This document shows, piece by piece, positions 1,035-19,786 of a DNA stretch of 37,312 bases. Source of the DNA: a virus. The number at the start of each line of letters is the position of its first letter. The first letter of the stretch is position 1. A model generated the notes under the pieces. It saw nothing but the letters and a program-made list of their open reading frames with translations. It had not been told where the DNA came from and did not search any database. The translations under genes and the position numbers were made by a program. Where the stretch lies: positions 1-37,312 of the IMG/VR virus record IMGVR_UViG_3300037119_002854, one strand, 5' to 3'.

Positions 1035-2689
1035 CCGTCGCCTTCCATCCAGGTTCCTATCGGGCGGCAGCGTCTGACCTGACTATCGCCATCAGCCCTC
1101 TGGGCCTGGTTGAACTCGCTGACGAGGAGTTCGAGGTACACGGGCCTCGCCTCAACCGCTACGCCAACAACTGGGCCTGGTATCTCGGTCACCACTGGGC
1201 CTATCGCAGGGAGATCGGTGAGCCTCAACTGACCTTCAACTGGGTCCGGGCGTTCATAGACTTCGTCGTCAACTTTTCCTTTGGCAAGGGCGTCAACTTC
1301 CACAGTCCCGAGGCCACCGGAGCCATTGTGCCCTACACCCTGAAGGAGGTGTGGGAGGTCCACAACCACAAGCAGGCCATCCTTATGGAGATCGGCCAAC
1401 TTGGCAGTGTCTCTGGTGATGTGTTCGTGAAGGTCGCCTACGAGCAGCCGTACATGGACACGGCGGGACTGCCGCATGAAGGTCGGATTCGGATACTCCC
1501 TCTGAATCCGGCCTTCTGCTTCCCCGAGTGGCATCCGCACGACCGCACTCGGATGATCCGCTTCAAGCTGAAGTACAAGTTCTGGGGCACGGCGCAGGAC
1601 GGCAGCCGCCAGGTCATGACGTACGTGGAACTGATGACCGAAGACACCATCGAGGAGTACATCAACGATGAACTCATCGACCAGCGGCCCAACCCGATTG
1701 GTGAGATACCAATCGCCTTCGCCCCCAACTTCTCCGTGGCCTCCTCACCGTGGGGGTTAGGTGATGCGAACGACATCATCTCGTTGAACAGGGAATACAA
1801 CGAGAAGGCCACGGAGATCAGCGACATCATCAACTACCACGTCGCTCCGGTGACGGTGATCACTGGTGCCAAGGCCAGCAACCTGGAGAAGGGCGCCCGC
1901 AAGGTATGGGCGATTGGCAACAAAGACGCCAAGGTCCAGAACCTGGAGTTGCAGACCAACTTCACCGGTCCCCTCGGCTACATGGAGCTTCTGAAGCAGT
2001 CGATGCATGAGTTCATGGGCGTGCCTGCCGCTGCTCTGGGCACGATGCAGCCGATCAGCAACACATCGGGTGTGGCCCTCTCCATGCAGTACCAGCCCCT
2101 GATGCTGAAGCATGAGCGCAAGAAGATCCAGTACATACCCATGTTTCAGCGCATCAACGAGTTGGTGATGAAGCATGCGTTCCTGTTCGCCCCTGACCTG
2201 ACCGTCTACAACCCACGTCTGTCGGCCACGATCCTGAAGCCCGACCAGTTCCCCCAGCTTGACCCGGCCGACCCGGTGTCATACCGCTCCTCGGTGGACT
2301 GGCCTAGCCCGATGCCGATGGACACGCTCATCAAGATCAACGAGATCCAGGCAAAGATGGCTATGAGCCTGGAGTCGCGCCGTGGAGCTTTGCGCGACCT
2401 TGGCCAGCAGTTCCCGGACCAGAAGATCAGGGAGATCTTCGAAGAGGTCATCGAGGACACCAAGGAGCAAGGCGCTCTCGATCTCATCCGCAGCCAGATC
2501 GCCGCCTTCAACCTCATGGCCACTGGTATGACACCAGACGGTCAGCCGATGATGACGGCCGACGCCGAGGGCAATCCAATGCCCGCTACTCCACCTGTCG
2601 ATCCGGCCCTGGCCCAGGAGATGCAGATGCTCGCTTACGGCCAGTACCCGCCGCAGATGGTGGACTACGAGGACGATGATTCTCGGTGA
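1031..2689 (+). CDS. Portal protein
   Basis: This 552-residue protein resembles SPP1 gp6-type portals. The N-terminal half contains the wing region (FNWVRAFIDFVVNFSFGKG). The central part LNREYNEKATEISDIINYH, followed by a GPLGYMELLKQSMHEFMGVP segment and an NTSGVALSMQYQPLM helix, is the characteristic stem/crown pattern of this family. The C-terminus is acidic and Met/Gln/Pro-rich, as in many phage portals. Twelve copies would form the DNA channel at one capsid vertex and dock terminase and connector. The ATG overlaps the preceding stop (ATGA) and the stop overlaps the next GTG (GTGA), so translation is probably coupled. The length fits the family. The position just before scaffold and capsid genes supports the call. 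Confidence 0.92.
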   Translation: MTVAFHPGSYRAAASDLTIAISPLGLVELADEEFEVHGPRLNRYANNWAWYLGHHWAYRREIGEPQLTFNWVRAFIDFVVNFSFGKGVNFHSPEATGAIVPYTLKEVWEVHNHKQAILMEIGQLGSVSGDVFVKVAYEQPYMDTAGLPHEGRIRILPLNPAFCFPEWHPHDRTRMIRFKLKYKFWGTAQDGSRQVMTYVELMTEDTIEEYINDELIDQRPNPIGEIPIAFAPNFSVASSPWGLGDANDIISLNREYNEKATEISDIINYHVAPVTVITGAKASNLEKGARKVWAIGNKDAKVQNLELQTNFTGPLGYMELLKQSMHEFMGVPAAALGTMQPISNTSGVALSMQYQPLMLKHERKKIQYIPMFQRINELVMKHAFLFAPDLTVYNPRLSATILKPDQFPQLDPADPVSYRSSVDWPSPMPMDTLIKINEIQAKMAMSLESRRGALRDLGQQFPDQKIREIFEEVIEDTKEQGALDLIRSQIAAFNLMATGMTPDGQPMMTADAEGNPMPATPPVDPALAQEMQMLAYGQYPPQMVDYEDDDSR

Positions 2690-3201
2690 GCGCTAGCGAC
2701 CACCTCTCCACCGACCAAAGCGGCCGGTACCAGTATCACCTCCAGCATGACTGGTCTGGTGCCAAGTATCTCAACGTTTACAAAGGTGAGCATCGTGTCG
2801 GGAACATGGGGGTCTACCCCGACGACTACGACGAGAACGACGAGCCTCTTGACGAACCGGTGGCGAGAGTCGGCGGCATGTCGGTTGCTCCCGGACACCG
2901 TCACATCGTCCCGACGATGATCGGCGTCATGCACAACCACATGGAGAACTACGAGGGCACCAGGCTGGTCCCTTCGGCCAACCTCTCCGAGCACTCGTCC
3001 CGGTTGGTACAGAAGCTCCAGGGGCGAGGGTTGGTCACCGAGAACCGAGAGAGCGGCGTGTCCAACGACATCGGCTTCGGTGGTCCTGTCTATACCCCGG
3101 AACACCTGCGTAAGGGGAACCGGCTCAACACCGAGGAGGTCAGCCACGGGCGCAAGTTCATGCGTCAGCAGTTGAAGGAGACGCGCCGTGAGCGCCAGTG
3201 A
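2686..3201 (+). CDS. Portal-adjacent paralog 1 of 3, unknown function (GNAT-like layout)
   Basis: This 171-residue protein is the first of three tandem paralogs. Shared blocks are an N-terminal SASDH..S..QSG.YQYH, a VYKG segment, P.HRHIVPTMIG near residues 67-77, LSEHSSRLVQKLQGRGLV in the middle and a C-terminal RLNTEEVSHGRKFMRQ. The order resembles GNAT acetyltransferases: a strand, a VxPxxR-like turn with a helix, then a Ser/His-rich helix ending in a G-containing strand. The glycine-rich acetyl-CoA loop is not intact, so catalysis is doubtful. The start is GTG, overlapping the portal stop by four bases. The position between portal and scaffold is where many phages carry a protease or minor head protein. 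Function is unknown; a minor head component is an inference. Confidence 0.8.
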   Translation: MSASDHLSTDQSGRYQYHLQHDWSGAKYLNVYKGEHRVGNMGVYPDDYDENDEPLDEPVARVGGMSVAPGHRHIVPTMIGVMHNHMENYEGTRLVPSANLSEHSSRLVQKLQGRGLVTENRESGVSNDIGFGGPVYTPEHLRKGNRLNTEEVSHGRKFMRQQLKETRRERQ

Positions 3202-3682
3202 CCACGTCTCCAAGGCTCAGACTGGCAAGTACGAGTATCACATGGAGGGTGGGGACTACACCAACGACGCCAGGGGTATCAACGTCTACAAGGGCGACAA
3301 GATGGCTGGGACGATGACCGTCCTCCCCGACAGCGACAGGACGGCCAACGTCTACTTCATGGGCGTGGACCCGAGGCACCGGCACATCGTTCCGACGATG
3401 ATTGGTATCGCCCAGCGCGAGATGTCTGCGTACGGGATGGAGCTTCAGCCGTCCACCGACCTCTCTGAGCATTCCTCTCGGTTGGTCCGCAAGCTCCAGG
3501 GGCGTGGTCTGGTCACCGGGTCGGCTGAGTCGGAGGCGTCCAACGACATCGAGTTCCGTAGCTACAACGCCACCATCCCCGAGAACCGGCGAGAAGGGCG
3601 GCGACTGAACACTGAGACGGTCAGCCTTGGCCGCAACCACATGCGCCAGCAATTGAGGGAGACACGCCGTGGCGGCAAGTGA
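3188..3682 (+). CDS. Portal-adjacent paralog 2 of 3, unknown function (GNAT-like layout)
   Basis: This 164-residue protein is most similar to the preceding paralog: both carry HRHIVPTMIG, LSEHSSRLV.KLQGRGLVT and an ending with MRQQL.ETRR. It overlaps the upstream gene by 14 bases, and the next copy overlaps it by the same 14 bases. That suggests the duplicated unit included the overlap junction. The GTG start codes for SASDHVSKAQTG. Compared with copy 1 the acidic loop between the N-terminal strand block and the HRH motif is replaced by a shorter segment. No signal peptide or membrane segment is visible. The function is not recognised; a GNAT-derived fold is suggested only by motif order. Confidence 0.8.
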   Translation: MSASDHVSKAQTGKYEYHMEGGDYTNDARGINVYKGDKMAGTMTVLPDSDRTANVYFMGVDPRHRHIVPTMIGIAQREMSAYGMELQPSTDLSEHSSRLVRKLQGRGLVTGSAESEASNDIEFRSYNATIPENRREGRRLNTETVSLGRNHMRQQLRETRRGGK

Positions 3683-4184
3683 CCACGTCTCTCAGGCCCA
3701 GAGCGGCAAGTACCAGTACCACCGGCAGAGCGACTACGACAAGACCAGCTATCGGGTCTACAAGGGTGAGGAAGAGATCGGTGGCCTGCACATCTCCCAC
3801 CGTGACCCGGAGACTGGTTACGAGTGGGACGAGGACGAGGGGCCGGTACCCCACACGGCGTCGGAGATGAAGTTCGCCCGGGGCCACAGCGCAGCGGCCA
3901 TGACGACGATTGGGATCGCCGCCCAGCAGGCTCTGGCCGAGGGATCCAAGCTCATGCCCGATAGGGATCTATCGGAACACTCATCGAAGTTGGTCCGTGG
4001 CCTCCAGGGGCGCGGATTGGTCACTGGGAGCGCCCCTACCGGGGTGACGAACAGCATGACCTTCATGACTCCGCAGCTTGCACACAGGGACTGGAGGCAA
4101 GGTGCCCGCCTCAACACCGACGAGGTCAGCAGCGGGCGCCAGTTCATCAAGGATGCGATCTGGGCGGGGAAGTGGCATCGGTGA
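3669..4184 (+). CDS. Portal-adjacent paralog 3 of 3, diverged, unknown function
   Basis: This 171-residue third tandem paralog keeps the N-terminal ASDHVSQAQSGKYQYH, the VYKG strand, DLSEHSSKLVRGLQGRGLVTG and the C-terminal RLNTDEVSSGRQFI. It has lost the HRHIVP motif, which reads ARGHSAAAMTTIG here, and ends with a different tail (WAGKWHR) in place of the ETRR ending. The change in the likely active or binding turn while the rest is preserved suggests a specialised role after duplication. It starts with GTG, overlapping copy 2 by 14 bases, and is followed by a 125-base non-coding gap before the scaffold gene. Confidence 0.8.
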   Translation: MAASDHVSQAQSGKYQYHRQSDYDKTSYRVYKGEEEIGGLHISHRDPETGYEWDEDEGPVPHTASEMKFARGHSAAAMTTIGIAAQQALAEGSKLMPDRDLSEHSSKLVRGLQGRGLVTGSAPTGVTNSMTFMTPQLAHRDWRQGARLNTDEVSSGRQFIKDAIWAGKWHR

Positions 4185-4309: not shown

Positions 4310-5119
4310 ATGTCCAATGACAACACCATCACTTCGGACGGTCAGGGCGTCCTCGTCGGCGTGACGCCCGCCCAGCCCCAGAACACCGTGCAGTGGGCGC
4401 AACAGCGACCCGATCAGACGGTAACACAACCCATCCAGGTGACGGATCAGCCCCAACAGCAGCCCCAAGGGCGCTTCACGGAGCAGGACATCGAGCGGGC
4501 ACGCCAGCAGGAGAAGGACAAGCTGTACCCCCGGCTGGAGGAGATGCAGGGCCAACTGAAGGAGCTTCGGGAGGCCCGTGAAGCCGAAGCGGCCGAGCGC
4601 ACCCGTCTGGCCGAAGAGGCCGAGGCAGCGCGACAGGCCAAGGAAGAGTCGGAGATGGACCTCCGTCAACTCTTCGAGAAGCGCGAGGCTGAGTTCAACA
4701 ACCAGATCCAGGAACTCAGCACCCGTTACGATACGGATCGAGCAATCTTCGAACGTGAACGGGCACTCCAGGAGGCGCACGCCTACCGGAGCGCCCGAAT
4801 CGAGCAAGAGTCGGAGTACATCCTCCCGGAACTCCGGGACTTGATCGGGGGGGACACCCCCGAGGCCGTTGACGCATCCATCGAGGAGATGAAAGCTCGC
4901 TCCGAGACGATCTTCAACAACATCGCGGCTGCGGCTCAACCGCAACCGTTTAGGGGAGCGGCGATGGCGTCGGTCCCTCCCGTAGGACCAATGGAACAGA
5001 TGCCGTCGTACGAGCAGTTGAGTCCTGATGACATCAGGACAATGGACATGGACACGTATAAGAGATACCGCGAGCAACTCCTGCGAGCCACTTCACCCAA
5101 TCGTCAACGGGGGCGGTAG
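4310..5119 (+). CDS. Capsid scaffolding protein
   Basis: This 269-residue protein has the composition of a phage scaffold. It has a Gln/Pro-rich flexible N-terminus, then a long Glu/Arg/Gln/Ala-rich coiled coil (about residues 55-170, e.g. ERARQQEKDKLYPRLEEMQG), then a less charged C-terminus with QLSPDDIRTMD and a basic ending (RQRGR). Such basic tails often contact the capsid protein. Scaffolds direct procapsid assembly and are then removed. The ATG at 4310 is preferred over the upstream TTG at 4280 because GGAGAAG lies at the right distance before it. The gene sits directly upstream of the capsid gene, the usual arrangement. No protease domain is fused to it. Confidence 0.85.
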   Translation: MSNDNTITSDGQGVLVGVTPAQPQNTVQWAQQRPDQTVTQPIQVTDQPQQQPQGRFTEQDIERARQQEKDKLYPRLEEMQGQLKELREAREAEAAERTRLAEEAEAARQAKEESEMDLRQLFEKREAEFNNQIQELSTRYDTDRAIFERERALQEAHAYRSARIEQESEYILPELRDLIGGDTPEAVDASIEEMKARSETIFNNIAAAAQPQPFRGAAMASVPPVGPMEQMPSYEQLSPDDIRTMDMDTYKRYREQLLRATSPNRQRGR

Positions 5120-5137: not shown

Positions 5138-6499
5138 ATGCCTGGAGCAGGTCTTGGCGGCGAGCTTCCTGTTGTATCTGGTATCACCGGTACGACAAGA
5201 ATCGCTACCGGAGGAGATTTCTCCAACTACACACCGGCTGTCGGCTACGACGGTCCCTACGGTGTAGACAACACTGGAGCCGGATACGGCGCAGGTATCA
5301 CAACCGGAACCACGATGATGGGACCGGCGATCCAGACCATCTGGTCCAAGGAGATCCTGTTCCAGTCGATGCCCGTGCTGCGGTTCGAGCAGTTCGCCGT
5401 GAAGAAGACGGAACTCGGCACCATGCCGGGACTCACCGTAAACTTCCTCCGCTACAACAATCTGCCCATCCCGGCAGGTCCGTTGGTGGAAGGCGTTCGC
5501 ATGAAGACCCATGCGATCTCGGCCCAGCAGTACGCCATCACGGTGGCCGAGCAGGGCTTCGCTGTGGCGGTGTCTGAACTGCTGCTCAACGCTTCGTTCG
5601 ATGACATCATGGCGTCGGCCAGCCGACTTCTGGGTCGCAACATGGCGCTCTACATGGACAACCAGGCGAGGTACCAACTCTCCCGGGCGTCAAGCGTCGT
5701 GTTCGGTTACCAGAAGCCAGCGGCCATCAACGTCGGCTACGGCGTCTACGAGCCTGGTACCCCGGCAGCCAACTACACAGCCGTCAACGCGGCTGCGGGC
5801 ACCCCGGCCAACTGGTACATGCTCACCCCGCACAGCGTCAAGGACGCCGTCGAGGTGCTCGCGTCGAAGAACGTGCCCCGCCTCGGTGAGACATACGTGT
5901 GTTTCATCCACCCCCACCAGGGACGACGGCTCCGTGATACCCCGGAATGGATCGAAGTCACGAAGTATGCCGCCCCCGGCAACTTCATGCTCGGGGAAAT
6001 CGGCCGTCTCAACGACGTGGTGTTCATCGAGACGACGCAGATCACCGGCCCGTCGTCGGTGACCGATGTGACCGACCCGTTCCCGACGCTCCCCGGCGCC
6101 GCGGTCACCAACGCCCCCAACGACACCGTCGACTGGCGTGGCGCCAACCTCGGCCTGTCGACCGACCTGGCTCCCGGTTCGGGCGGCAACCCGTACGCCA
6201 ACATCACCCAGCCGGTCGACGGCACGTCGCCAACGCCCGACACCCCTCCGGGGTCCGTGAACGACTACCCGCTCGCCGTCGCCACCCCCGGGTGGGGCCA
6301 GCCGTGGGGTCCGTCGACTTCGGTGTACGAGGCGATGATGCTGGGCGACAACGCCTTCGGTCATGCCATCTCGCTGCCGGTCGAACTCCGCGATGGCGGG
6401 GTGCTCGACTTCGGCCGTGAGCACGCTCTGGCGTGGTACTCGATCTGGGGCTGGGGTGTCATCACCGAGTCCTCGGTCGTCAAGATCATCACCAACTGA
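5138..6499 (+). CDS. Major capsid protein, N4-gp56-like HK97 fold
   Basis: This 453-residue protein resembles the N4-gp56 family of capsid proteins. A helix (AIQTIWSKEILFQSMPVLRF) leads to an RYNNLPIPAGPLVEGVRMKT segment that matches the family's LxEGV signature. It is followed by the AISAQQYAITVAEQGFAVAVS strand and the MASASRLLGRNMALYMDNQA spine-helix region. A Gly/Pro/Thr-rich stretch at about residues 305-395 interrupts the C-terminal part and is probably a surface insertion domain. The C-terminus (ALAWYSIWGWGVI) fits the end of the fold. The ATG follows GAAGGAG. Hairpins flank the gene on both sides. Hundreds of copies would form the shell. The scaffold gene directly upstream supports the call. 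Confidence 0.9.
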   Translation: MPGAGLGGELPVVSGITGTTRIATGGDFSNYTPAVGYDGPYGVDNTGAGYGAGITTGTTMMGPAIQTIWSKEILFQSMPVLRFEQFAVKKTELGTMPGLTVNFLRYNNLPIPAGPLVEGVRMKTHAISAQQYAITVAEQGFAVAVSELLLNASFDDIMASASRLLGRNMALYMDNQARYQLSRASSVVFGYQKPAAINVGYGVYEPGTPAANYTAVNAAAGTPANWYMLTPHSVKDAVEVLASKNVPRLGETYVCFIHPHQGRRLRDTPEWIEVTKYAAPGNFMLGEIGRLNDVVFIETTQITGPSSVTDVTDPFPTLPGAAVTNAPNDTVDWRGANLGLSTDLAPGSGGNPYANITQPVDGTSPTPDTPPGSVNDYPLAVATPGWGQPWGPSTSVYEAMMLGDNAFGHAISLPVELRDGGVLDFGREHALAWYSIWGWGVITESSVVKIITN

Positions 6500-7478: not shown

Positions 7479-9095
7479 GTGGCACGGCCAGCGGTAACGC
7501 ATGACGGATTCCTGATCCCGAATGCCAGCGGGGTGGGCGAGCCGGTCCTGGCCGAGCCAGATCAGATCGACTTCAACACCCTGGCCAACGCCCAGTGGGG
7601 CGTGATTGACGGTTGTGAGGTCAACGCTCAGTCGGCCAAGACGGTGGCGATCAGCGATGGCACCGCCATCGTCAACGGCAAGCTCGTCTTGGTCACCGGC
7701 AACTCGCTACCTCTGCCGACGCCGGGGGCCAACGGTCAGTTCGTGCTCGTCGTGGTGGATGACGGTGGAGTGCTCAGGCTCAACACGTCGGCGTCTGCTT
7801 CCGTCGACCCGGTGTTCCCCGATCCCGAGGCCAACGAGACGGTGTTGGCTTCGGTGTACTGCGATGCCACATCAGCGAGCTTCGCCAACAACATCGTGGA
7901 CAAGCGCAAGCTGCTGTCCAAGGCACTGCTGACCAAGATCCCCACCACTGGTGAGTTGATCCGCAACGCCAACAACACGGGGAATCACTACCTCGTCAGG
8001 GGCGATGGCAAGACGTCTTGGGAGGGCGACACCTTTGCCTATCGGTCAGGCGTCAAGACGCTGAAGATCGAGGACGACCTTCAGGTCAAGGGTGACATCG
8101 CCTCCACCAACCTCGTCACCAGTGCCGATGTCACCGCCGTGGGGAACATCGCTGCGAAGAACTTCAGCAGGGGCACCGTCTTGCCCAATGTCTCCTCTCA
8201 CGTCAATGGGGACATCTTCATCCAGGTGACCAACGGCAACATGTACGTCTGCGTCGATGGGGTGTGGAGTCAGTTCGCTTCGATGTCGGCCACTCAGGGC
8301 ATCATCCCCATCGGCACCGTGATCACTTGCTTGCAGTCTCCCACCACCATGCGGCTACTGGGTTGGTATCCGATGGACGGCACCGAGTCACTGAGTGAGG
8401 ACGATCATCCAGGGATCTTCAATGTCGCCACTGGCGGGACGGTAACTGGGACCGCTCCCCACCGGATACTGACGCTGCCCAACCTCAATCGGCGCACGAT
8501 GATCGTGGACTTCAACTCGCCACACTCGATGGGGCCGACTCAGACGACCACTCGTAGCGGGAACCTGTTGACACTGACGACTACCCAGCTACCTACGCAC
8601 AACCACTCGGTCGGCGGCGCCTACGGCAGGACAAGCACGTTGGACGCCACTACGCCCACGCTCACCATCCCTTTCAGCGGGGCGCACTCCACCCACGACG
8701 TGTCGGGGGGCTACCACGAACATCCCGTCTACGATCCCGGCCACACCCACCAGGGCATGGACTGGTTCGGGGTGGCCGCTCCAATCATCGCCCAGGTCGA
8801 CTTCGCCGGGTCACCCAAGGAGGGCAAGAACAAGCTCGACGCCATGTTCAACGACTCCTCGCACACCTACGACGTGGAGCCGATCCGTTGGACGATGAGA
8901 GCCACCACCGGCATCGGCCTCGGGCCGAACTACAACCATGGTCACACCATCACTGGTGGGGAGCACAGTCACGGTGGCACCGTCAGCACCATTCCGGCCC
9001 ACTATCACACCGTCAGCGAGTTGGATGTCGGCAATAGCGGGCAGATCGACATCACGCCGCTGAACTTCACCATCTACGCATACATCAGAGCCTGA
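7479..9095 (+). CDS. Tail fibre / collar-type receptor-binding protein with His-x-His tip
   Basis: This 538-residue protein has an N-terminal beta-rich virion-attachment part (to about residue 150) and a middle segment with short repeats (KTLKIEDDLQVKGDI, SADVTAVGNIAAKNF). Next comes a phage tail-collar-like region (IIPIGTVITCL...LGWYPMDG, LPNLNRRTMIV), then a His-rich C-terminus. Six H-x-H motifs are visible at residues 374-376, 413-415, 422-424, 487-489, 496-498 and 508-510. In T4 gp37 and gp12, H-x-H motifs in a trimeric fibre coordinate metal ions. A trimeric metal-bound tip is inferred here. It starts with GTG after GAAGGAG and its stop overlaps the next ATG. It probably recognises the host surface. 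Confidence 0.75.
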   Translation: MARPAVTHDGFLIPNASGVGEPVLAEPDQIDFNTLANAQWGVIDGCEVNAQSAKTVAISDGTAIVNGKLVLVTGNSLPLPTPGANGQFVLVVVDDGGVLRLNTSASASVDPVFPDPEANETVLASVYCDATSASFANNIVDKRKLLSKALLTKIPTTGELIRNANNTGNHYLVRGDGKTSWEGDTFAYRSGVKTLKIEDDLQVKGDIASTNLVTSADVTAVGNIAAKNFSRGTVLPNVSSHVNGDIFIQVTNGNMYVCVDGVWSQFASMSATQGIIPIGTVITCLQSPTTMRLLGWYPMDGTESLSEDDHPGIFNVATGGTVTGTAPHRILTLPNLNRRTMIVDFNSPHSMGPTQTTTRSGNLLTLTTTQLPTHNHSVGGAYGRTSTLDATTPTLTIPFSGAHSTHDVSGGYHEHPVYDPGHTHQGMDWFGVAAPIIAQVDFAGSPKEGKNKLDAMFNDSSHTYDVEPIRWTMRATTGIGLGPNYNHGHTITGGEHSHGGTVSTIPAHYHTVSELDVGNSGQIDITPLNFTIYAYIRA

Positions 9096-10620: not shown

Positions 10621-13600
10621 ATGGCCAACGCTGCCGTTCGCTTTGACGCGTCAGCCGACAAATACTCGCGCTTGGCCGCGGGCCTCGGATCTTCTGACTT
10701 CACAATCTGCTGTTGGGTCAAGATCCAGGTAGATCGCAACGCCTTCGGTGGGATCGTTGCTTGTGACAACGCCGGTTCTGGTTACCAGTCTTTTGGTGTC
10801 AACTCCACCGGCACTGCTCTCGGGTGCTTCTCAGCAGCTACTGACACCTTCCAAACTGCCGGTACCTTCGATCTGACCGTAGGCACCTGGACGTTCGTCG
10901 CCAGGACGTTCACGACCACTGCTACTGGCCACATCTACAAGGCGCTCTCCGGGGCGGGGTCGTTGACCGAGGCGGCGAACGCTCCAGGCTTCGGCACGCC
11001 AATGAACGACTCTTGGACGTTGTGCATTGGCAACGACGGCTACGGAGACTGGATGAACGCCAGCATCGCTGCCGTCAAAATCTGGTCAGCCTCGCTCACC
11101 TCCACCGAACTGCTGGCCGAGATGGCGACCTACCAGCCGGTGCGGACTTCGAACCTGTGGGCCAACTACACGTTCTACAACGGGCCGCAGACCAACGATG
11201 AGAGTGGCAACAGTCGCACCCTGACTGCGGGGGGCACGCTCACCACCGACTCTTCGGGGCCACCGATCACGTTGGGCGGCAGTGGGCCTACCTACAGCGA
11301 GACTGGGTTGTCGGTCGCCATCGCTTCGACGGTCGCCCTGACTGACACGTACACCACGCATCACTTCGTTGACACCGGCCTTTCACTCCCCATCATCTCA
11401 ACCGTCTCCAGCATCGATAGCTACACGCACACCAGTGGTGGGGGTTCGGTAAGCGCCGTTCGCTTCGATGCCTCGGCTGACAAGTACACCCGTTCTGCAT
11501 CCGGCCTCAACACCTCGACCAGTATCACATGGTGCTGCTGGGTCAAGTTTGCCAGTGACCGCAACGCCTACACGATGGTGCTGTCCTCGAACGACAACGT
11601 CGGCACCCTCTACGTGGAGTTGGGTGCTGGGGGCGATGGCACCAGTTACGCCCTGCTCAGTACATCCGGTGGGGCTTCTTCGTCATTCCAGTTCACCCCC
11701 GGCACTTGGACGTTCATCGCTGCCACGATGGACATCGTCGGCGCTAACGACTATCTGTATCACGCCGAATCCCCAGCGACGACACTGACCGGCGACTTCA
11801 TCTTCACTCTGCCCACAGGGTGGGCCGACACCAACACGCTCTACATCGGCAGCAGCTTCTTCGGGGACTGGCTCGACGGCTCTGTCGCCCAGGTGAAGAT
11901 CTGGACCCGTGCGCTGACCCAGGCCCAGCTTGAAGCGGAGATGTACGCCGACAGCGTCGTTGGCGGCGCCAACCTGTGGGCGTACTACAGCTTCCGGGCA
12001 GGGCCACAGACCAACGATGAGTCGGGCAACGGGCGCACCCTCACGGTTGGTGGCACGCTCGCTACCGATACCTCTGGCCCCTTCGGCAGTAGCTCCACTC
12101 ACTACGACGAGACGTTGTGTCCTGTCGTCATGGCGGTGACGACTGCGTCGACTGCGGCCGTTCACTGTCTTGATACGGGACGCTCGCTTACTGTTGTATC
12201 AACAGTCGGTTGCACGGACACCTATCACCCGGCGACGCCCAGCGACTGGCAGGCGGCGGTCGACTCCGGGAGCCTCGCCACGATGCAGGCGTGGTATGCC
12301 GCCAACTGCGGATACCTGGCCGAGGGCTTCTTGGAGTCCTCGATGTGGGGCAACATCGCTACCGATGTCTCAGTCACCTCATCGTGGCTGACGACCAACG
12401 CTGCGGCGGGTCGGGTGGTCAACGACGGCGGGGGCCACTGGACCGTCACCGGGCTGCGGTGTCACACCCTCGAAATACGGGTGTCGAACATCACGTTCCG
12501 GCACATGCACCTCGATCAGGCGGGCGATCTCGATCCCTCATTCGCTCCGGGGGTCATCACCTTCGACCCGTCCATTGGCAGCCCCGACGCCGTGACGCTC
12601 ACGAACATCCGGTTCGAGTACTGCACCGTCGAGTCCGGTGGCGTCTACTGGGTCACTCAGAAGCAGCGCACCTCCAACGTCTGCACGCTCACCTATACCA
12701 AGGGCAGCAGCCAGACGCCTCTGCTGACGGTCGGCCAGACGTTGGAGATCCGCATCGGTGACTCAACGTTCGACTACAACGTCGAGGCAACGCAGAACCC
12801 TGCTCGGGCCACGATCACGGCGGTGACGCCGACGACGTTCAGCTACACCAAGGCGGGCGCCAATGTCTCGCCCACGGCAACGCCAGCCGGTTCCTTCGCC
12901 ACCACCTTCTCCGAGGGTGATTCCGGCGACGTCGTCTACTACGACCCGTCAGATGCGACGGCGGTGTGGAACGGCATGTTCTGGGACCACTGCATCGGCA
13001 AGGACTACGTGGCGGCGTTCAAGCTCAACCGTGGCACCACGGTCCAGTACTGCTGGGTGCCCTCGCTCACCTTCTACGGGTTGGACCCCCACAACACGTC
13101 ATCGTCCATCCGGGGCAAGTACTGCCGCCTGTTCCGCAATCTCTTCGAGACGGGCACGTCGTCGGCGGTGTCTCTCTATGCCGACAACTACCCGTTCACC
13201 GAGTTCGAGCTACATGAGAACATCCTGCACGCTCCTACCGACTACACGGTCAACTTCCCCCTACGGAACCCCTGGCCACCGGCCGTCGTCAGTTGGTCAC
13301 CGCTGGAGAACGGCTTCCGTCGTGAACTGGTCGGCAACTACCTCATGCGAGGGTCGGCGGGGTATGTCGATGACACCGCCTACTTCTCCAAGACGTTCGA
13401 CAACAAGCTGTTCGACGGCACCCCCGTCCCCGACCTCATGGACGAGGGCGCCCCTTCGGTATCCACTGAGCCGCACCTGATCAAGACGTGCTGGAACAAC
13501 TTCGGTGGCGGGGCGATGGAGTACCTCAACACCTGGGAGTTCACTCCCTCGCCCAACTCGACGCTGTTCGTGTTTGCTGGGATCGTGCAGGGCGGGCACT

Positions 13601-15330
13601 CGACCACTCAGGCGCCCACCGTCACGGTGACCGGCCAGTACCCGCAGACCTTCTCCGCTGTTACTAACACAGCACTCCAGAATGCTCCTGGTGCTGACGC
13701 CGCTCACGGCATGCGGCTCTGGTTGTACAAGGCCGAGACTGGTAGTACCACCAGCTTCGAGCACATCCGCTTCGACCCATACGCTGGTACGCAGATCGCC
13801 TACATCTGCTTCTGGGTCTACGAGGTGACCGGGGTGACGGGGATGAACCTCGTCCACTCGTCGGGGAAGATGGCTACTTCGGTCGACACGATCACCTCCA
13901 ACGCTCTGTCGGGTAGTGCCGCCAACGGCAACCTGTCGATGGCCTTCGCTGCCGCCACCGTGCTCGACACCGGGGCGATGTCGCTCCAGTCCGGGTGGCA
14001 ACGGATCGGCGTCCAGGACATCGCCTACTCTTCCGGCAACTACGCCGTGACCGGCGCCGCCTACTGGCGCAAGGACTTCACTGGTACCACCTTCACGATC
14101 TCTGACTTGGGTAACAGCGTTCAGAACGCTGGAGTCCTGCTCACCGAGTACACGGTCCCCGGTGGCACCACGTATATCGAGACAAATCGGCCAGTCACTG
14201 TTGTCTCAGCGGTGGCCTCCTCTGACCAGGCCGACTTCGAAGATCACCCGGTGGCGGTGGTGGTGGTAGCAACTACCACTCTTCCGACTGAGAACTTCTC
14301 CCACGTCAGCCACTTCGTTGAAACCGGACTACCTGTTGTTGTCATAGCGACGACGACGCTACCGACCGAGAACTTCACGCACATCGGCTACTTCGATGAG
14401 CAGCAGCGCTCGGTAGTCATCTCTTCGGATGTCAACACCGTCATCTCCAAGCAGGCGCGGTTCGACCTGAATCTGGGCACGGTTGTCGTCTCGAACTTCA
14501 CTCAGCCGGTCGATCAGGTCGACTTCGAAGACCACCCGGTCGGTGTGGCCGTCGCAACGACGATTGGCACCGTCATCGAGAAGGTGCGGACCAGGGACTT
14601 GGGCTTGGCGCTGTCCATCGTCTCCACCGCCACCAACTGGGCCAACCGAGCCGACTACAACGAACCAAACCGTCCTCTGGTTATCGTCGCTGGCGTCTCC
14701 TGCACTGACCTGCATCAGGCGCCGGGGCACTTCGATGAGACTGGGAACCTCATCCAGGTCGTCAGCACGATCACGGCCAGTAGCCAGGCCGACTTCGAGG
14801 ATCACCCTGTCGGTCTGGTCATCGCAGCGACTGTCGTCAGTACCGACTCTCGGCGTTGTATCGAGACAGGTAGGTCAGTCACCGCCGTCTCCGCTGTAGC
14901 GCTTGTCGGAGAGCAGATCGCTCGTCGCGACCTCGACCTCAGCATCGCCATCTCCTCGACGGTGACCAACCTCAACAGAGCGTCCTTCTACGAGAGCTTG
15001 GTTCTCCCTAGTGAGGTGCTCGCCTACTGCCTCGACGGCAAGGGCGTTACAGAGCGCTTGACGGTCGTCGCTCCCTTGGTGGTGGGGGTAGAGGACCGAG
15101 CCAGCTACCACCAGAACAACCGGCCACTGGCGCTGGCGTCCACCGTTACCAACGCCAGTGGCCTCCACGTCATCTTGGCCATCGCCCTCGTCAGCATCGT
15201 CTCCGAGATCACCTCGGCCGACAGCACGTCCAGGGTCGGGGTCATCAAGCTCAACGACGCCGACCTCATCCTCCTCGGCACCGAGCCGGTGTCCAAGGTC
15301 TACCTCGGAGCGACTCAGGTTTGGCCGTGA
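10621..15330 (+). CDS. Giant multi-domain adhesin/fibre: two LamG, beta-helix and short-repeat array
   Basis: This 1569-residue modular protein begins with LamG 1 at about residues 1-215, then two linker repeats (ETGLSV..STV). LamG 2 spans about 278-490, followed by further linker repeats. A right-handed beta-helix-like region at about 540-960 carries Cys-rich rungs (FRHMHLDQ, YCTVESGG, GLDPHNTSSSIRGKYC). A jelly-roll-like domain covers about 970-1180. An array of ~22-25-residue beta repeats follows to about 1535. The C-terminal motif KVYLGATQVWP is common on phage tail proteins. LamG and beta-helix folds bind or cut glycans; no catalytic triad could be assigned. The beta-helix and following domain are paralogous to those in the protein at 16559. 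The ATG has only a weak upstream ribosome-binding site. Host adhesion is inferred. Confidence 0.8.
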   Translation: MANAAVRFDASADKYSRLAAGLGSSDFTICCWVKIQVDRNAFGGIVACDNAGSGYQSFGVNSTGTALGCFSAATDTFQTAGTFDLTVGTWTFVARTFTTTATGHIYKALSGAGSLTEAANAPGFGTPMNDSWTLCIGNDGYGDWMNASIAAVKIWSASLTSTELLAEMATYQPVRTSNLWANYTFYNGPQTNDESGNSRTLTAGGTLTTDSSGPPITLGGSGPTYSETGLSVAIASTVALTDTYTTHHFVDTGLSLPIISTVSSIDSYTHTSGGGSVSAVRFDASADKYTRSASGLNTSTSITWCCWVKFASDRNAYTMVLSSNDNVGTLYVELGAGGDGTSYALLSTSGGASSSFQFTPGTWTFIAATMDIVGANDYLYHAESPATTLTGDFIFTLPTGWADTNTLYIGSSFFGDWLDGSVAQVKIWTRALTQAQLEAEMYADSVVGGANLWAYYSFRAGPQTNDESGNGRTLTVGGTLATDTSGPFGSSSTHYDETLCPVVMAVTTASTAAVHCLDTGRSLTVVSTVGCTDTYHPATPSDWQAAVDSGSLATMQAWYAANCGYLAEGFLESSMWGNIATDVSVTSSWLTTNAAAGRVVNDGGGHWTVTGLRCHTLEIRVSNITFRHMHLDQAGDLDPSFAPGVITFDPSIGSPDAVTLTNIRFEYCTVESGGVYWVTQKQRTSNVCTLTYTKGSSQTPLLTVGQTLEIRIGDSTFDYNVEATQNPARATITAVTPTTFSYTKAGANVSPTATPAGSFATTFSEGDSGDVVYYDPSDATAVWNGMFWDHCIGKDYVAAFKLNRGTTVQYCWVPSLTFYGLDPHNTSSSIRGKYCRLFRNLFETGTSSAVSLYADNYPFTEFELHENILHAPTDYTVNFPLRNPWPPAVVSWSPLENGFRRELVGNYLMRGSAGYVDDTAYFSKTFDNKLFDGTPVPDLMDEGAPSVSTEPHLIKTCWNNFGGGAMEYLNTWEFTPSPNSTLFVFAGIVQGGHSTTQAPTVTVTGQYPQTFSAVTNTALQNAPGADAAHGMRLWLYKAETGSTTSFEHIRFDPYAGTQIAYICFWVYEVTGVTGMNLVHSSGKMATSVDTITSNALSGSAANGNLSMAFAAATVLDTGAMSLQSGWQRIGVQDIAYSSGNYAVTGAAYWRKDFTGTTFTISDLGNSVQNAGVLLTEYTVPGGTTYIETNRPVTVVSAVASSDQADFEDHPVAVVVVATTTLPTENFSHVSHFVETGLPVVVIATTTLPTENFTHIGYFDEQQRSVVISSDVNTVISKQARFDLNLGTVVVSNFTQPVDQVDFEDHPVGVAVATTIGTVIEKVRTRDLGLALSIVSTATNWANRADYNEPNRPLVIVAGVSCTDLHQAPGHFDETGNLIQVVSTITASSQADFEDHPVGLVIAATVVSTDSRRCIETGRSVTAVSAVALVGEQIARRDLDLSIAISSTVTNLNRASFYESLVLPSEVLAYCLDGKGVTERLTVVAPLVVGVEDRASYHQNNRPLALASTVTNASGLHVILAIALVSIVSEITSADSTSRVGVIKLNDADLILLGTEPVSKVYLGATQVWP
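14170..15230 (+). repeat. Array of short beta-type repeats encoded in giant fibre gene
   Basis: About 15 imperfect repeats of 22-25 residues lie here, with four or five more copies as linkers at about 11290-11430 and 12100-12220. The loose consensus is an aromatic or His, x, E/D, T/x, G/x, then alternating hydrophobics (VVVSTV-like), then polar residues. The variant DFEDHPV recurs at residues 1205, 1301 and 1391, 96 and 90 residues apart. This suggests a four-module higher-order unit. The same repeat precedes the LamG domain of the gene cut at the left edge. Confidence 0.65.
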
Positions 15331-15786: not shown

Positions 15787-16559
15787 CCACCTCTGACATG
15801 GCCTCTGCTGCCGACATGGCTTCTACCGCTCGGACGTACCTGCGTGACTTCCCGATCTACTTCGAGATCGATGAGGGGCCACTCAACGTCCTCACCATCC
15901 GCCTGCCCCACCCGCTGGTGCAGACTGCCAGCCTCCAGGTGTACATCACCGACACCTCGGCCACCCCTCCGACGACAATGCTCACCGATCAGTGGGAACT
16001 CGACGGCCGCAACGGGCTGTTGAAGGTCACCGACGAGACGGCCCTCGGCAAGGTGGTGCTGGTATCCGGGTATCACCACACCTGGTTCTCCGACGAGGAG
16101 TTGACCTTCCACCTGAGCAAGGTCATCCATGAGATGACTTACCAGGGTCAGTCGCTCGATGACTTCGTTCCTGTGCAGATGGACATCATCGCCCTCGGTG
16201 GCGTGGTGCATGCTCTCTGGTCGTTGTCGATGGAGTTGGCCCTTGATATCGATGTATCGACCCCTGAAGGCATGTTCATCCCGGCCCGGCAGCGATACAG
16301 CCAGGTCGTCGCCATGGCTCAGGGCTTCGAGCGGGAGTACCAGGACAAGGCGGCGATGCTCAACATGGGCCTCAACTCCTTCGATCAGTCCCGCCTACGC
16401 CGGGTGGCCAAGATGACTGGCCGCTTCGTGCCGGTGTACATCGACCGCGAGTTCGATGACCCACGGCCCCCCGAGCGGGTCTACCCACCCATCCCCGAGG
16501 GCATCGTGACCGGTTCCACGGATCTCGAAACCATCGACGTGCTTTACGGAGGTTCGTGA
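15783..16559 (+). CDS. Probable connector/neck or virion structural protein
   Basis: This 258-residue protein has a Met/Ala/Ser/Thr-rich N-terminus (TTSDMASAADMASTARTYLR). A beta domain (FPIYFEIDEG..NVLTIRLPHP and VLVSGYHHTWFSD) comes next, then a largely helical C-terminal part (ALGGVVHALWSLSMELALDI, RQRYSQVVAMAQGFEREYQD). The protein ends in a Pro-rich tail. A beta N-domain plus a helical AMAQ.FE.EYQ. segment recalls head-tail adaptor-type proteins in other phages. The isolated position between fibre genes makes the call tentative. The ATG overlaps the previous stop (ATGA). Confidence 0.5.
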   Translation: MTTSDMASAADMASTARTYLRDFPIYFEIDEGPLNVLTIRLPHPLVQTASLQVYITDTSATPPTTMLTDQWELDGRNGLLKVTDETALGKVVLVSGYHHTWFSDEELTFHLSKVIHEMTYQGQSLDDFVPVQMDIIALGGVVHALWSLSMELALDIDVSTPEGMFIPARQRYSQVVAMAQGFEREYQDKAAMLNMGLNSFDQSRLRRVAKMTGRFVPVYIDREFDDPRPPERVYPPIPEGIVTGSTDLETIDVLYGGS

Positions 16560-19500
16560 TGGCCGAGCGCCTCATCGGCACTGACAGCGCCAACCCACGA
16601 CTGCCGCAGGTCGTGGTCGACGCCACCAAAGGCACCGGGCCACATGACATCGCTGCTGGTGACCACACCCACGCTGGCGGTGGGGGTGGTGGCGGGACCG
16701 ATCCGAACGCCGTTGAATCATCCACGGCCGGGGACGGTCCGCGCTTGGAGACTATGGCGGTCTACAGCGGCAGCGGGTACGCCACCCTTGCCACCAAAGA
16801 CCCGAATACCTACTACGTGGTTACCCCGCAGTCAGGTGGACAAGGCTCCCTCTACCTCGGTACCACACTGTTACTGGGCACTCCGTTGACCATTCCCGAT
16901 GGCGTTCCTTCAGTGGTCGCCACACCGGGGGACACCCAAGCGACAGTCACTTGGGGCACTCCATCTTCTGGTGGTTTGGCGATCACGGGGTACATCGTCC
17001 AGCGCTCTCTCAATGACACCACCGGCTTCGCCAACGTCGCCACGCCTTCGGCTGCTACGCACACCTTCACCAACACCGGGCTGACCAACGGCACGACCTA
17101 CTACTACCGGGTGCTTGCCACCAACGCACTCGGGAACAGCCCCTTCGCTGTTGTGGTATCGGCAAGGCCGGTCACCAACTCCGTCATCGTGCTCGCTTCT
17201 GATGACTTGACCGCCGACTTCGGCACGCCGGTTACGTTCACCGCCACGATCACGGCAAGTGGGGCGCCGATCACTGCTGTCGGCAACGTCACGTTCAAGC
17301 GAGGCGGCAACGTCATGGCCGGGGTCGCCGTCGTTACTGGTGGCACCGCTACTTTCGCTACCTCTAGCCTTGCAGTCGGGTCATACACCATCACTGCCGA
17401 GTACGACGGTGGTAGCACCTACTTGCCGTCTGTCTCGAACACGCTCTCGCAGGTCGTGCAGTTTCCCGGTGGACCGGCAGCAACTTCCTCCACGCTCACG
17501 TCGGACGACGCATCGTCCACACCATCACAGGCAGTCACGTTCTCTTGTGCCGTGGTCCGTTCTTCCACGGGGGCGCCGGTCAATTCAGGCACGGTGGTGT
17601 TCCGTGATGGTGGTGTCACACTGTCCACTCCTCGTTCTGTCGACCCGGTGACCGGCATTGCCACCTTCACCACATCGGTACTGACGACGGCGACGCATAC
17701 GATCACCGCCGACTTCGCAGGCGCACCGTTCTACGCTCCGTGTACATCGCCCGCCGTCACCCAGGTCGTCGCTGTCGGAACGGGTGGCGCACCTATCTCG
17801 CAGACGATCTACATCTCCAAGCCACTTGCCGCCGTTACCGAGGTCGTCTCGCTGCGCTCCACTGTGCGAAGCGGTCCTTCAGCGGTGACGCTTGGCACGG
17901 TTGAGTTCTTCGATGGCTCCACATCACTAGGTATGGGCACTGTTCTCAACATCTTCGGTGAGTCGACTCTCGTACTCCCTACTGGGTTGTCTGTCGGCAC
18001 TCACACGATCACGGCTCAGTACACCGACAGCACCTCTGCTCATGAGGACGACACGTCGTCTCCATACACCCATACCGTGGTGGCGACGATCACCGCTCCT
18101 TCACCGAACACCTGGGACGCCGCCTTCGCTTCCGACGATCTGGCGACGATTACGGCATGGTACGACTACAACACCGGGCACCTCACCGAGGGGTTCACCA
18201 ACGCCGACCTGTGGGTTCCACCCGAAGGTGACGGAGCCGGTACTGCGGTGCATATCGACGCCGCTTGGTTGACCGCCAACGCTGCCGCAGGCAAGGTCGT
18301 CAACACTGGTGGCTCGAATTGGACGATCACCGGGATGAAGTGCAACGCCATCCAAGCAAGGGTCGGCCATCTCACCTTCGACCACTGTTGGATCCATCGT
18401 GTCGACTATGCGGCCAGCGTCGCCTTCCCCGGGTTCATTGTTTGGGACACGTCCCTACCTGCCCCGCCGTACGTTGATCTCGTCACCCTCGGCGACTATG
18501 AGTTCAACCACTGCACCTTCACTACCGATGGCACAGGTGGTGACTCGACCAGTGGTGATACCGTGTACTTCTACACGGCCACTGCCATCCCCGATGACCT
18601 TCGCTTCAACTACTGCGAAGTGACGATGTGGACAGCGTGCTTCAAGGCAGTCAACGGGATGACCGTCAACTACTGCTGGGTCCACGACCTCAACCTGTTC
18701 GGCTTCGACCCGCACAACACGTCCATGTCGATCCGCTCCCGCCAGTGCCGTGCGTATCGCAACCTGATGACCGATGGTACGTCTAGTTGCATCTCGCTCT
18801 ACTCCGACTTCAACCCCCACACCGACTTTTGGCTCATCGAGAACACGATGTGGGTCAACATCCTGCACGCCAACCAGGAGGTCAACTTCCCCAACCGTGG
18901 CACCGGGTGGTCGCCTCTGTTGCCCGGCTACGTACGCGAGTTCGTCGGCAATAAGTTCCTCGACGGCACTCGCAACGGTGACAACCAGTACTGGTCGAAG
19001 GTGGCCGGGAACAGCCAACTAGGCACCAAGTGGCCTCTCTACGGTGGTGCCGATCCGGTGCAGATCGTCGGAGTCCCGACGTTGCTCACCTTGATATCCA
19101 CCGGCATGGGTTTCGGAGCCAGCCAGGCGATGGACACCTTCCACTACACGCCCTCTCCTCTTTCCACGTCGTTGTGCTTCATGATGATCGGGCGAGCCAA
19201 CACCACTCTCAACCCGTCCATCGCCATCAACGACGAGTCGGGGTCGATCTGGCTGCCGGTGGAAGGTTGTGCCACGCCGCTGGCTCTGGCGGCAGGCGGC
19301 GGCGGTGCAGGACCAATCGTCTACGGCGCCTCGGCCGACATCTGGCAGATGCAGACTGGCTCTGGAACACAGTCGTTCCGGCGTATCAACATCGATCCAT
19401 ACACCACCACCAACACCGCCTACATGGCGGCGATGGTTGTTGAGTTGACCGGGATCAACTTCATGAACCTTGCACAGCCCCCTGTGATGTCGAACGGCGG

Positions 19501-19786
19501 GGTCGAAATCCCCTTCGGCGGGTCGTTGGCGTCGTTGTCATCGGGCACCTTCGCCAACAACGCCAACCCCGGCAACATCGTGATGTGCTTCGTCGGGTAC
19601 AACCATGAGACGAGGGGCCGCATCACGGCGCCCAGTGGGTGGAACCTGATGGGTAGCAACTACGACGTCCGCACATCGTGCGCCTGCATCTGGCGGGATG
19701 ACTTCTCTGGCAAGAAGGTAACCATCCCGGCTTTCCCTGATGGGTGCAGTGTCGCCGTCACAGTCATGATCGAGGTGACGGCGTGA
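16559..19786 (+). CDS. Giant fibre/adhesin: Fn3, three Ig-like repeats, beta-helix
   Basis: This modular protein has about 1075 residues. The N-terminus contains HDIAAGDHTHAGGGGGGG and KDPNTYYVVTP. A fibronectin type III domain follows (about residues 118-205; GLTNGTTYYYRVLATNALGN). Three Ig-like (Big_5-type) repeats come next at about 212-500, each with GTVxF..G and AGxYTITA-like strands. A beta-helix at about 515-860 carries GFDPHNTSMSIRSRQC, and a jelly-roll-like end covers about 870-1075. The last two parts are paralogous to residues 540-1180 of the protein at 10621. The ATG at 16559 is preferred over the overlapping GTG at 16556 because GGAGG lies six bases before it. Host-surface binding is inferred; no catalytic residues were assigned. 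Confidence 0.78.
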   Translation: MAERLIGTDSANPRLPQVVVDATKGTGPHDIAAGDHTHAGGGGGGGTDPNAVESSTAGDGPRLETMAVYSGSGYATLATKDPNTYYVVTPQSGGQGSLYLGTTLLLGTPLTIPDGVPSVVATPGDTQATVTWGTPSSGGLAITGYIVQRSLNDTTGFANVATPSAATHTFTNTGLTNGTTYYYRVLATNALGNSPFAVVVSARPVTNSVIVLASDDLTADFGTPVTFTATITASGAPITAVGNVTFKRGGNVMAGVAVVTGGTATFATSSLAVGSYTITAEYDGGSTYLPSVSNTLSQVVQFPGGPAATSSTLTSDDASSTPSQAVTFSCAVVRSSTGAPVNSGTVVFRDGGVTLSTPRSVDPVTGIATFTTSVLTTATHTITADFAGAPFYAPCTSPAVTQVVAVGTGGAPISQTIYISKPLAAVTEVVSLRSTVRSGPSAVTLGTVEFFDGSTSLGMGTVLNIFGESTLVLPTGLSVGTHTITAQYTDSTSAHEDDTSSPYTHTVVATITAPSPNTWDAAFASDDLATITAWYDYNTGHLTEGFTNADLWVPPEGDGAGTAVHIDAAWLTANAAAGKVVNTGGSNWTITGMKCNAIQARVGHLTFDHCWIHRVDYAASVAFPGFIVWDTSLPAPPYVDLVTLGDYEFNHCTFTTDGTGGDSTSGDTVYFYTATAIPDDLRFNYCEVTMWTACFKAVNGMTVNYCWVHDLNLFGFDPHNTSMSIRSRQCRAYRNLMTDGTSSCISLYSDFNPHTDFWLIENTMWVNILHANQEVNFPNRGTGWSPLLPGYVREFVGNKFLDGTRNGDNQYWSKVAGNSQLGTKWPLYGGADPVQIVGVPTLLTLISTGMGFGASQAMDTFHYTPSPLSTSLCFMMIGRANTTLNPSIAINDESGSIWLPVEGCATPLALAAGGGGAGPIVYGASADIWQMQTGSGTQSFRRINIDPYTTTNTAYMAAMVVELTGINFMNLAQPPVMSNGGVEIPFGGSLASLSSGTFANNANPGNIVMCFVGYNHETRGRITAPSGWNLMGSNYDVRTSCACIWRDDFSGKKVTIPAFPDGCSVAVTVMIEVTA

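Follow-up and report, generated by a model that had tools for sequence, protein, structure and literature searches.

The internal proteins of phage T4 are diverse, have only the capsid-targeting sequence (CTS) conserved and are encapsidated into the scaffolding core (PMC3012670). In phage P1, the first 30 N-terminal residues of DarB are sufficient to bring a reporter into the capsid, and no N-terminal consensus was found among the Dar proteins (PMC9024508). Iyer and colleagues predicted packaging and injection for polyvalent proteins and for solo GNATs encoded near late genes (PMC5512222), and ADP-ribosyltransferases (ARTs) have been predicted to be frequently packaged in contractile-tail phages (PMC9503650). 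Here we describe three tandem genes (positions 2686-4184) in a stretch of 37,312 nucleotides (nt), IMG/VR virus record IMGVR_UViG_3300037119_002854, referred to as the window, which encodes the head and tail proteins of a contractile-tail phage from soil. Their products begin with a peptide of about 12 residues, the tag, which is real, conserved at the protein level, located at gene starts, restricted to phages and common to unrelated protein bodies. By analogy with the systems above, we consider it fairly probable that the three proteins are tagged cargo, that is, small effectors with a capsid-targeting-like label that would be packaged and injected. A wider proposal, which we hold with as much doubt as belief, is that the exchangeable peptide quite generally directs proteins into virions across a large uncultured contractile-tail lineage, that unrelated host-modifying enzymes are gathered behind it as cassettes (about ten in one stretch) and that the window carries three diverged pseudo-acetyltransferases, probably binders. 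The three genes and their tags are:

2686-3201, + strand: copy 1, 171 amino acids, GTG start; N-terminal tag, putatively degenerate GNAT-like body and C-terminal RLNT helix block
2686-2721, + strand: tag of copy 1, VSASDHLSTDQS, matched by the tag DNA pattern and common to unrelated phage proteins
3188-3682, + strand: copy 2, 164 amino acids, GTG start; tag and putatively degenerate GNAT-like body
3188-3223, + strand: tag of copy 2, VSASDHVSKAQT; predicted local distance difference test (pLDDT) below 50 for residues 1-12
3669-4184, + strand: copy 3, 171 amino acids, GTG start; tag and the most diverged GNAT-like body
3669-3704, + strand: tag of copy 3, VAASDHVSQAQS; pLDDT below 50 for residues 1-12

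The tag follows the consensus M-A-A-x-[DE]-[HN]-[LI]-[SNH]-x-x-Q-[FL], which takes the form V-[SA]-A-S-D-H-[LV]-S-x-x-Q-[ST] in the window, and all three copies carry M/V-[AST]-A-x-[DEN]-[HN]-[LIV]-x-x-x-Q within their first 11 residues. According to the models it is disordered or flexible in copies 2 and 3. In one relative (L013), the place between portal and scaffold genes is taken by a single open reading frame (ORF) that starts with MAATDHLN; its body is unrelated to the copies and has an F-H-G-T start like Arr-type ARTs, and Pfam did not recognise it. In other relatives, ORFs just upstream of the portal gene begin with MAASDHVSPHQL, MAAVDHIHPQQM, MAASHHLSPLQL and VAAHENLSEGQF. A DNA pattern for M-A-A-x-D-H-[LIVMF]-x3-Q-[LIVMF], run on IMG/VR, found 37 stretches, nearly all at the beginning of short ORFs whose bodies differ widely, and a second pattern added more matches. 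With chance or unclear matches excluded (L168, L182, L199, L303, L311-L313, L320, L329 and L338), there are 116 tagged ORFs, 98 of them non-redundant (<80% identity), and all are short phage ORFs. A match in phage GiJojo was rejected as a chance ORF of 8 codons.

Several controls bear on this signal. Three matches to the tag DNA pattern occur in the window, where 0.05 are expected, and the reversed pattern gave none in 20 records that hold 23 forward matches. For an unbiased test, 152 loci were picked by portal or capsid only; the loose motif stood 12 times at a start codon versus 13 times elsewhere (background 2.7%, p 6e-13). Ala-2 and Ala-3 are encoded by all four GCN codons, and both GAC/GAT and CAC/CAT are used while the residues are kept; the tag is therefore conserved as protein and not as DNA. 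Over half of the tagged ORFs evaluated (37 of 69) overlap the stop codon of the preceding gene, usually by one base and mostly as TGATG or TAATG. A slightly stricter pattern returned 60 matches and no tagged effector in 257 gigabases of bacterial and archaeal genomes; inspected singly, most of these fall within longer open frames, and a match that recurs resembles what we take to be the N-terminus of glutamate dehydrogenase. The tag extension QSG[KR]Y of copies 1 and 3 also occurs in an ART-like ORF beginning with MAAHEHINKDQSGKYVRLHRG (L319:4784-5182, - strand). The portals examined, that of the window included (1031-1120), carry an A[AS][AQS]SDL[TA]-like sequence near residue 13 that superficially resembles the AASDHLS tag. 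Kinship of portal and scaffold N-termini with the tag (portal ...RAAASDL[TA]...) was a comparison by eye at chance level and was dropped as a probable coincidence.

After removal of the first 13 residues, BLAST at E<1e-3 placed the bodies in 34 clusters, the largest being ParB/Srx-like (21), GNAT (20), ART-like (13) and a papain-like family with conserved Cys, His and Asp (6). Pfam detected GNAT in 15 tagged members, Arr-ms in 6 (best E 9.9e-13) and ParB_N in 2, the tagged GNATs exceeding the Pfam cut-off, and comparison of the tag-free alignments by hhalign revealed no link among the GNAT, ART, ParB and papain-like bodies. Judged by sequence, the tag is borne by at least four unrelated bodies: GNAT, Arr-like ART, ParB/Srx-like and papain-like. 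Members of the last family (L183:13719-14195 and 13264-13716; L171:4423-5390 and 8073-8465; L184:34-408) have a conserved Cys, HxV and VD[LF]T[HY].Q[FY]D; from these residues the fold looks like a papain/transglutaminase type, and the family has no notable Pfam match and no match in cultured phages. Clusters of about ten tagged genes, a mixture of GNAT, ART, ParB and papain-like ones, are seen in records G005 and G007. Dense runs of short tagged genes with the same mix are seen at L223:6884-14518 and L224:13142-19802, where some neighbours start with a RIVYHGT-type sequence without the tag.

The bodies of the three copies themselves were modelled with AlphaFold2 for copies 2 and 3, the model of copy 2 being built from the three copies only. 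Copy 2 (pLDDT 69.7, predicted template modelling score (pTM) 0.70) shows the strand-helix order of the GNAT core (beta2-4, alpha3, beta5, alpha4). Foldseek against PDB returned almost only GNATs for it, with probabilities mostly of 0.95-1.00 (0.96-1.00 for the top matches) and a best E of 8.9e-3 (probability 1.00), none reaching 1e-3, and against viral models mostly phage GNATs (best E 7.5e-4). Copy 3 (pLDDT 62.9, pTM 0.64) has the same order of elements and gives weak Foldseek matches. With the tags cut, hhalign matched the copies best to the tagged GNATs (E 0.0022, a single comparison), the other bodies giving 0.067-0.88. In Pfam, PF00583 matched copies 1 and 2 weakly (E 0.17-0.19; 12.5-12.6 bits versus a cut-off of 20.7) and copy 3 not at all; all Pfam and PHROG matches of the copies alone were below cut-off. 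The earlier note had seen a motif order reminiscent of GNAT enzymes and had proposed structure prediction of each copy: the models support a GNAT fold for copy 2, and more weakly for copy 3.

Given these features, the reading of the triplet as tagged cargo comprises the following steps. Each protein would consist of a flexible label of about 12 residues and a GNAT-fold body without the pyrophosphate loop that holds acetyl-coenzyme A (acetyl-CoA). The label would recruit the late-expressed proteins to the assembling head, be it portal, scaffold or capsid interior; the proteins would enter the new host along with the injected DNA and act there on host proteins or defences. Among the tagged records, G005, G006, G008, G012 and G022 have portal and capsid genes of BRock type, and the contigs of others, G007 included, yielded neither. 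Several observations weigh against this reading. The tagged clusters of G005 and G006 lie tens of kilobases from the portal, that of G005 stands beside a gene resembling tail-fibre or head-decoration genes, and many members of the lineage have no tagged genes near the portal. In Foldseek, copy 2 reaches only E 9e-3 and copy 3 only 0.2, and hhalign, with three sequences as input, gives the match of the copies to the tagged GNATs a probability of only 13% (E 0.0022). No cultured phage is known to carry the tag, which is too short for a direct BLAST scan of the cultured records. Finally, of the window genes examined none stood out as a prohead protease, the window being part of a genome, and a T4-like cleavage of the tag is therefore without support.

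The clusters away from the portal would also suit a tag that acts as a localisation or interaction signal inside the infected cell (towards a host complex, the membrane, the nucleoid or the phage replication site) on proteins that are never packaged, and one common docking partner would equally fit a tag on many effectors. We consider this unlikely: where flanks are identifiable, the tagged genes stand among head and tail genes, which points to late expression, the same domain classes are predicted to be packaged, and a late take-over of the host would be of little use in the same cell.

For the way in which the cargo would work in the new host we looked at the position of GNAT motif A, which in the three copies reads as follows:

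2896-2925, + strand: copy 1, HRHIVPTMIG, without the R-G-x-G/A turn of the tagged relatives (HRHRGVATHLL)
3377-3406, + strand: copy 2, HRHIVPTMIG
3885-3914, + strand: copy 3, HSAAAMTTIG, diverged further

HRHIVPTMIG is thus exact in copies 1 and 2, and all of its residues but H, T, I and G are replaced in copy 3. Neither sequence conforms to the pyrophosphate loop [RQ]-x-x-G-x-[GA]; they replace (Q/H)R(K/H)(K/R)G(V/I)A. Tagged GNATs such as that of L169 have VADDHRHRGVATHLL...KHSSNLSKAGKAWKKSL, whereas the copies have VAPGHRHIVPTMIG...PSANLSEHSSRLVQKL, in which the acetyl-CoA-holding R-G-x-A turn is gone. The loss of R-G-x-G/A in all three copies agrees with the view of the earlier note that the acetyl-CoA loop is not intact. 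Because of the GNAT-like fold search and the missing turn, the copies are likely degenerate GNATs without acetyltransferase activity. Since the loop is lost, they would probably work by binding, as decoy or inhibitor, rather than by acetylation, and three diverged copies would have different targets. The topology related to tagged GNATs that retain R-G-x-A, together with the weak detection of copies 1 and 2 by PF00583, could instead be taken to mean that the copies retain acyltransferase activity and bind CoA through an unusual loop. This seems to us quite unlikely, as R-G-x-G/A is missing from all three, copy 3 lacks HRH too and matches in a fold search are no proof of CoA binding.

The position of the triplet has been compared with the corresponding loci of related phages. 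Its neighbours and junctions are:

1031-2689, + strand: portal protein, SPP1 gp6-like and BRock-like (Pfam PF05133, E 6.9e-25; PHROG 64)
2686-2689, + strand: 4-nt overlap GTGA of portal end and copy 1 start
3188-3201, + strand: 14-nt overlap of copy 1 end and copy 2 start
3669-3682, + strand: 14-nt overlap of copy 2 end and copy 3 start
4310-5119, + strand: scaffolding protein homologue (homologue annotated as GiJojo gp70)
5138-6499, + strand: major capsid protein (PHROG 1357, E 2.1e-54)

Searches with portal and capsid place the phage near the Streptomyces phages BRock and GiJojo, to which the portal is 57% identical and the major capsid protein 67-68% over two pieces (48% to pSt2308). The scaffold gene normally lies directly 3' of the portal gene, and nothing stands between the two in BRock and GiJojo. 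We surveyed 144 loci of this BRock-like contractile-tail lineage that have both genes, some of them sharing a contig. The gap from portal to scaffold frame has a median of 88 nt, and the slot is empty in 140 of the 144 at a cut-off of 150 nt. Larger gaps occur only in the window virus (the window and L009, 1582 nt), L013 (419 nt) and L031 (170 nt), and L010-L012 have an empty slot despite portals 91% identical to that of the window. The triplet has therefore been inserted at a site that has no conserved regular occupant. The earlier note had taken the site for one that usually holds a protease or minor head protein; no such conserved occupant was found among these relatives, and this part of its claims falls.

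Its account of the origin of the triplet fared better. The copies share 54% (copies 1 and 2, E 2e-53), 41% (1 and 3, 1e-39) and 40% (2 and 3, 1e-31) identity in BLASTP; their likeness is therefore not due to chance, and they are three tandem paralogues as had been noted. Both junctions show the 14-nt overlap that it had reported, and the triplet grew, on this reading of the sequence, by tandem duplication with the junction included. The copies have the blocks [SA]ASDH[LV], LSEHSS[RK]LV..LQGRGLVT and RLNT..VS.GR in common. The LSEHSS and RLNT blocks hold in all three as proposed, but copy 3 has AASDH instead of SASDH, and this first block is not specific to the paralogues, being the lineage-wide tag found on unrelated enzymes. 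An assembly duplication, which the note had named as a possible refutation, is ruled out, because a nucleotide identity of 54-65% among the copies is far too diverged. With dS close to saturation, the ratio of nonsynonymous to synonymous substitution (dN/dS) lies at about 0.39-0.59, and the three copies read as retained coding sequences under purifying selection. Copy 1 has 100% matches in two other IMG/VR contigs, one of which was aligned across the whole triplet and is identical. When the three proteins were searched against 50,697 phage records, no match was better than E 0.2, and degenerate patterns for the C-terminal block found only the same virus in IMG/VR and no matches in genomes.

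The translational coupling to the portal and the retention of three diverged copies under purifying selection would suit the view of the earlier note, in which the copies are structural minor head proteins that surround the portal as a hetero-oligomer. Relatives whose portals are 91% identical have an empty slot and need no such structural part, the tag is common to enzymes and the fold is GNAT-like, so that we regard this as very unlikely; three tagged copies can be explained without a hetero-oligomer. That the shared start is a nucleic-acid feature (translation coupling or a recombination handle for cassette exchange) with a functionless peptide would fit the overlap of 37 of 69 tagged ORFs with an upstream stop, as in coupled cassettes, and seems to us highly improbable, since codons are free to vary while residues are kept, GTG- and ATG-started members have the peptide in common and conservation extends to positions 11-12.

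Elsewhere in the window, two large tail-region proteins (10621-15330 and 16556-19786) have a repeated block in common (...WYAANCGYLAEGFLESSMWGN... and ...WYDYNTGHLTEGFTNADLWVP...), which suggests duplicated tailspike modules.

If the label is a loading signal, effectors of phages could be found by their first 12 residues without homology of the body, and chosen proteins could be carried into these particles as has been done with T4 and P1. Such a label would also explain how solo effectors of the polyvalent repertoire reach virions without fusion to a head protein. In the triplet one can test if a packaged enzyme becomes a binder once its CoA loop is gone.

In comparison with known systems, the tagged proteins resemble the T4 internal proteins IPI-III as diverse small effectors with only a short N-terminal sequence in common. 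The tag differs from that sequence as far as known (no alignment was made), the bodies are GNAT, ART, ParB and papain-like, and packaging is here a prediction. P1 DarB provides a parallel for N-terminal residues as packaging signal, which in the tagged phages is again presumed; unlike the Dar N-termini, which lack a consensus, a clear consensus joins unrelated proteins here. Effectors fused to MuF likewise combine a head-directed module with exchangeable effector domains (PMC9503650), but MuF is a folded domain whereas the tag is a disordered peptide of about 12 residues. Polyvalent proteins and their solo relatives, e.g. the GNAT gp113 of mycobacteriophage Alice, have the same ParB/Srx, ART and GNAT repertoire near late genes; in the tagged phages these are separate small proteins with a common label and not fusions, and the excerpted text of that study describes no tag-like label (PMC5512222).

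Among cultured phages, the mycobacteriophages of cluster C, which have contractile tails, carry the closest relatives of the tagged GNATs. Tonenili gp097, Blubba gp73 and Phabba gp084 contain a GNAT with 39% identity to a tagged GNAT and are encoded upstream of the portal, but they have no tag, and ParB-, GNAT- and ART-like segments are fused in one protein. The head-module proteins gp097, gp258, gp257, gp250 and gp249 of Tonenili (L294, 25001-75000) contain 11 [RK]TAG motifs versus 0.36 expected from shuffles (maximum 3 of 500), and there are none in the capsid protein or in such tail proteins as were examined. Three [RK]TA[GS] sites of gp097 lie between its ParB-, GNAT- and ART-like segments, and these motifs could be processing sites of a polyprotein cargo. 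In the open-licence literature searched we found no account of an N-terminal label that unrelated solo effectors share across a lineage. Overall, the domain classes and the idea of packaged effectors were already known, and the shared label would be the new part.

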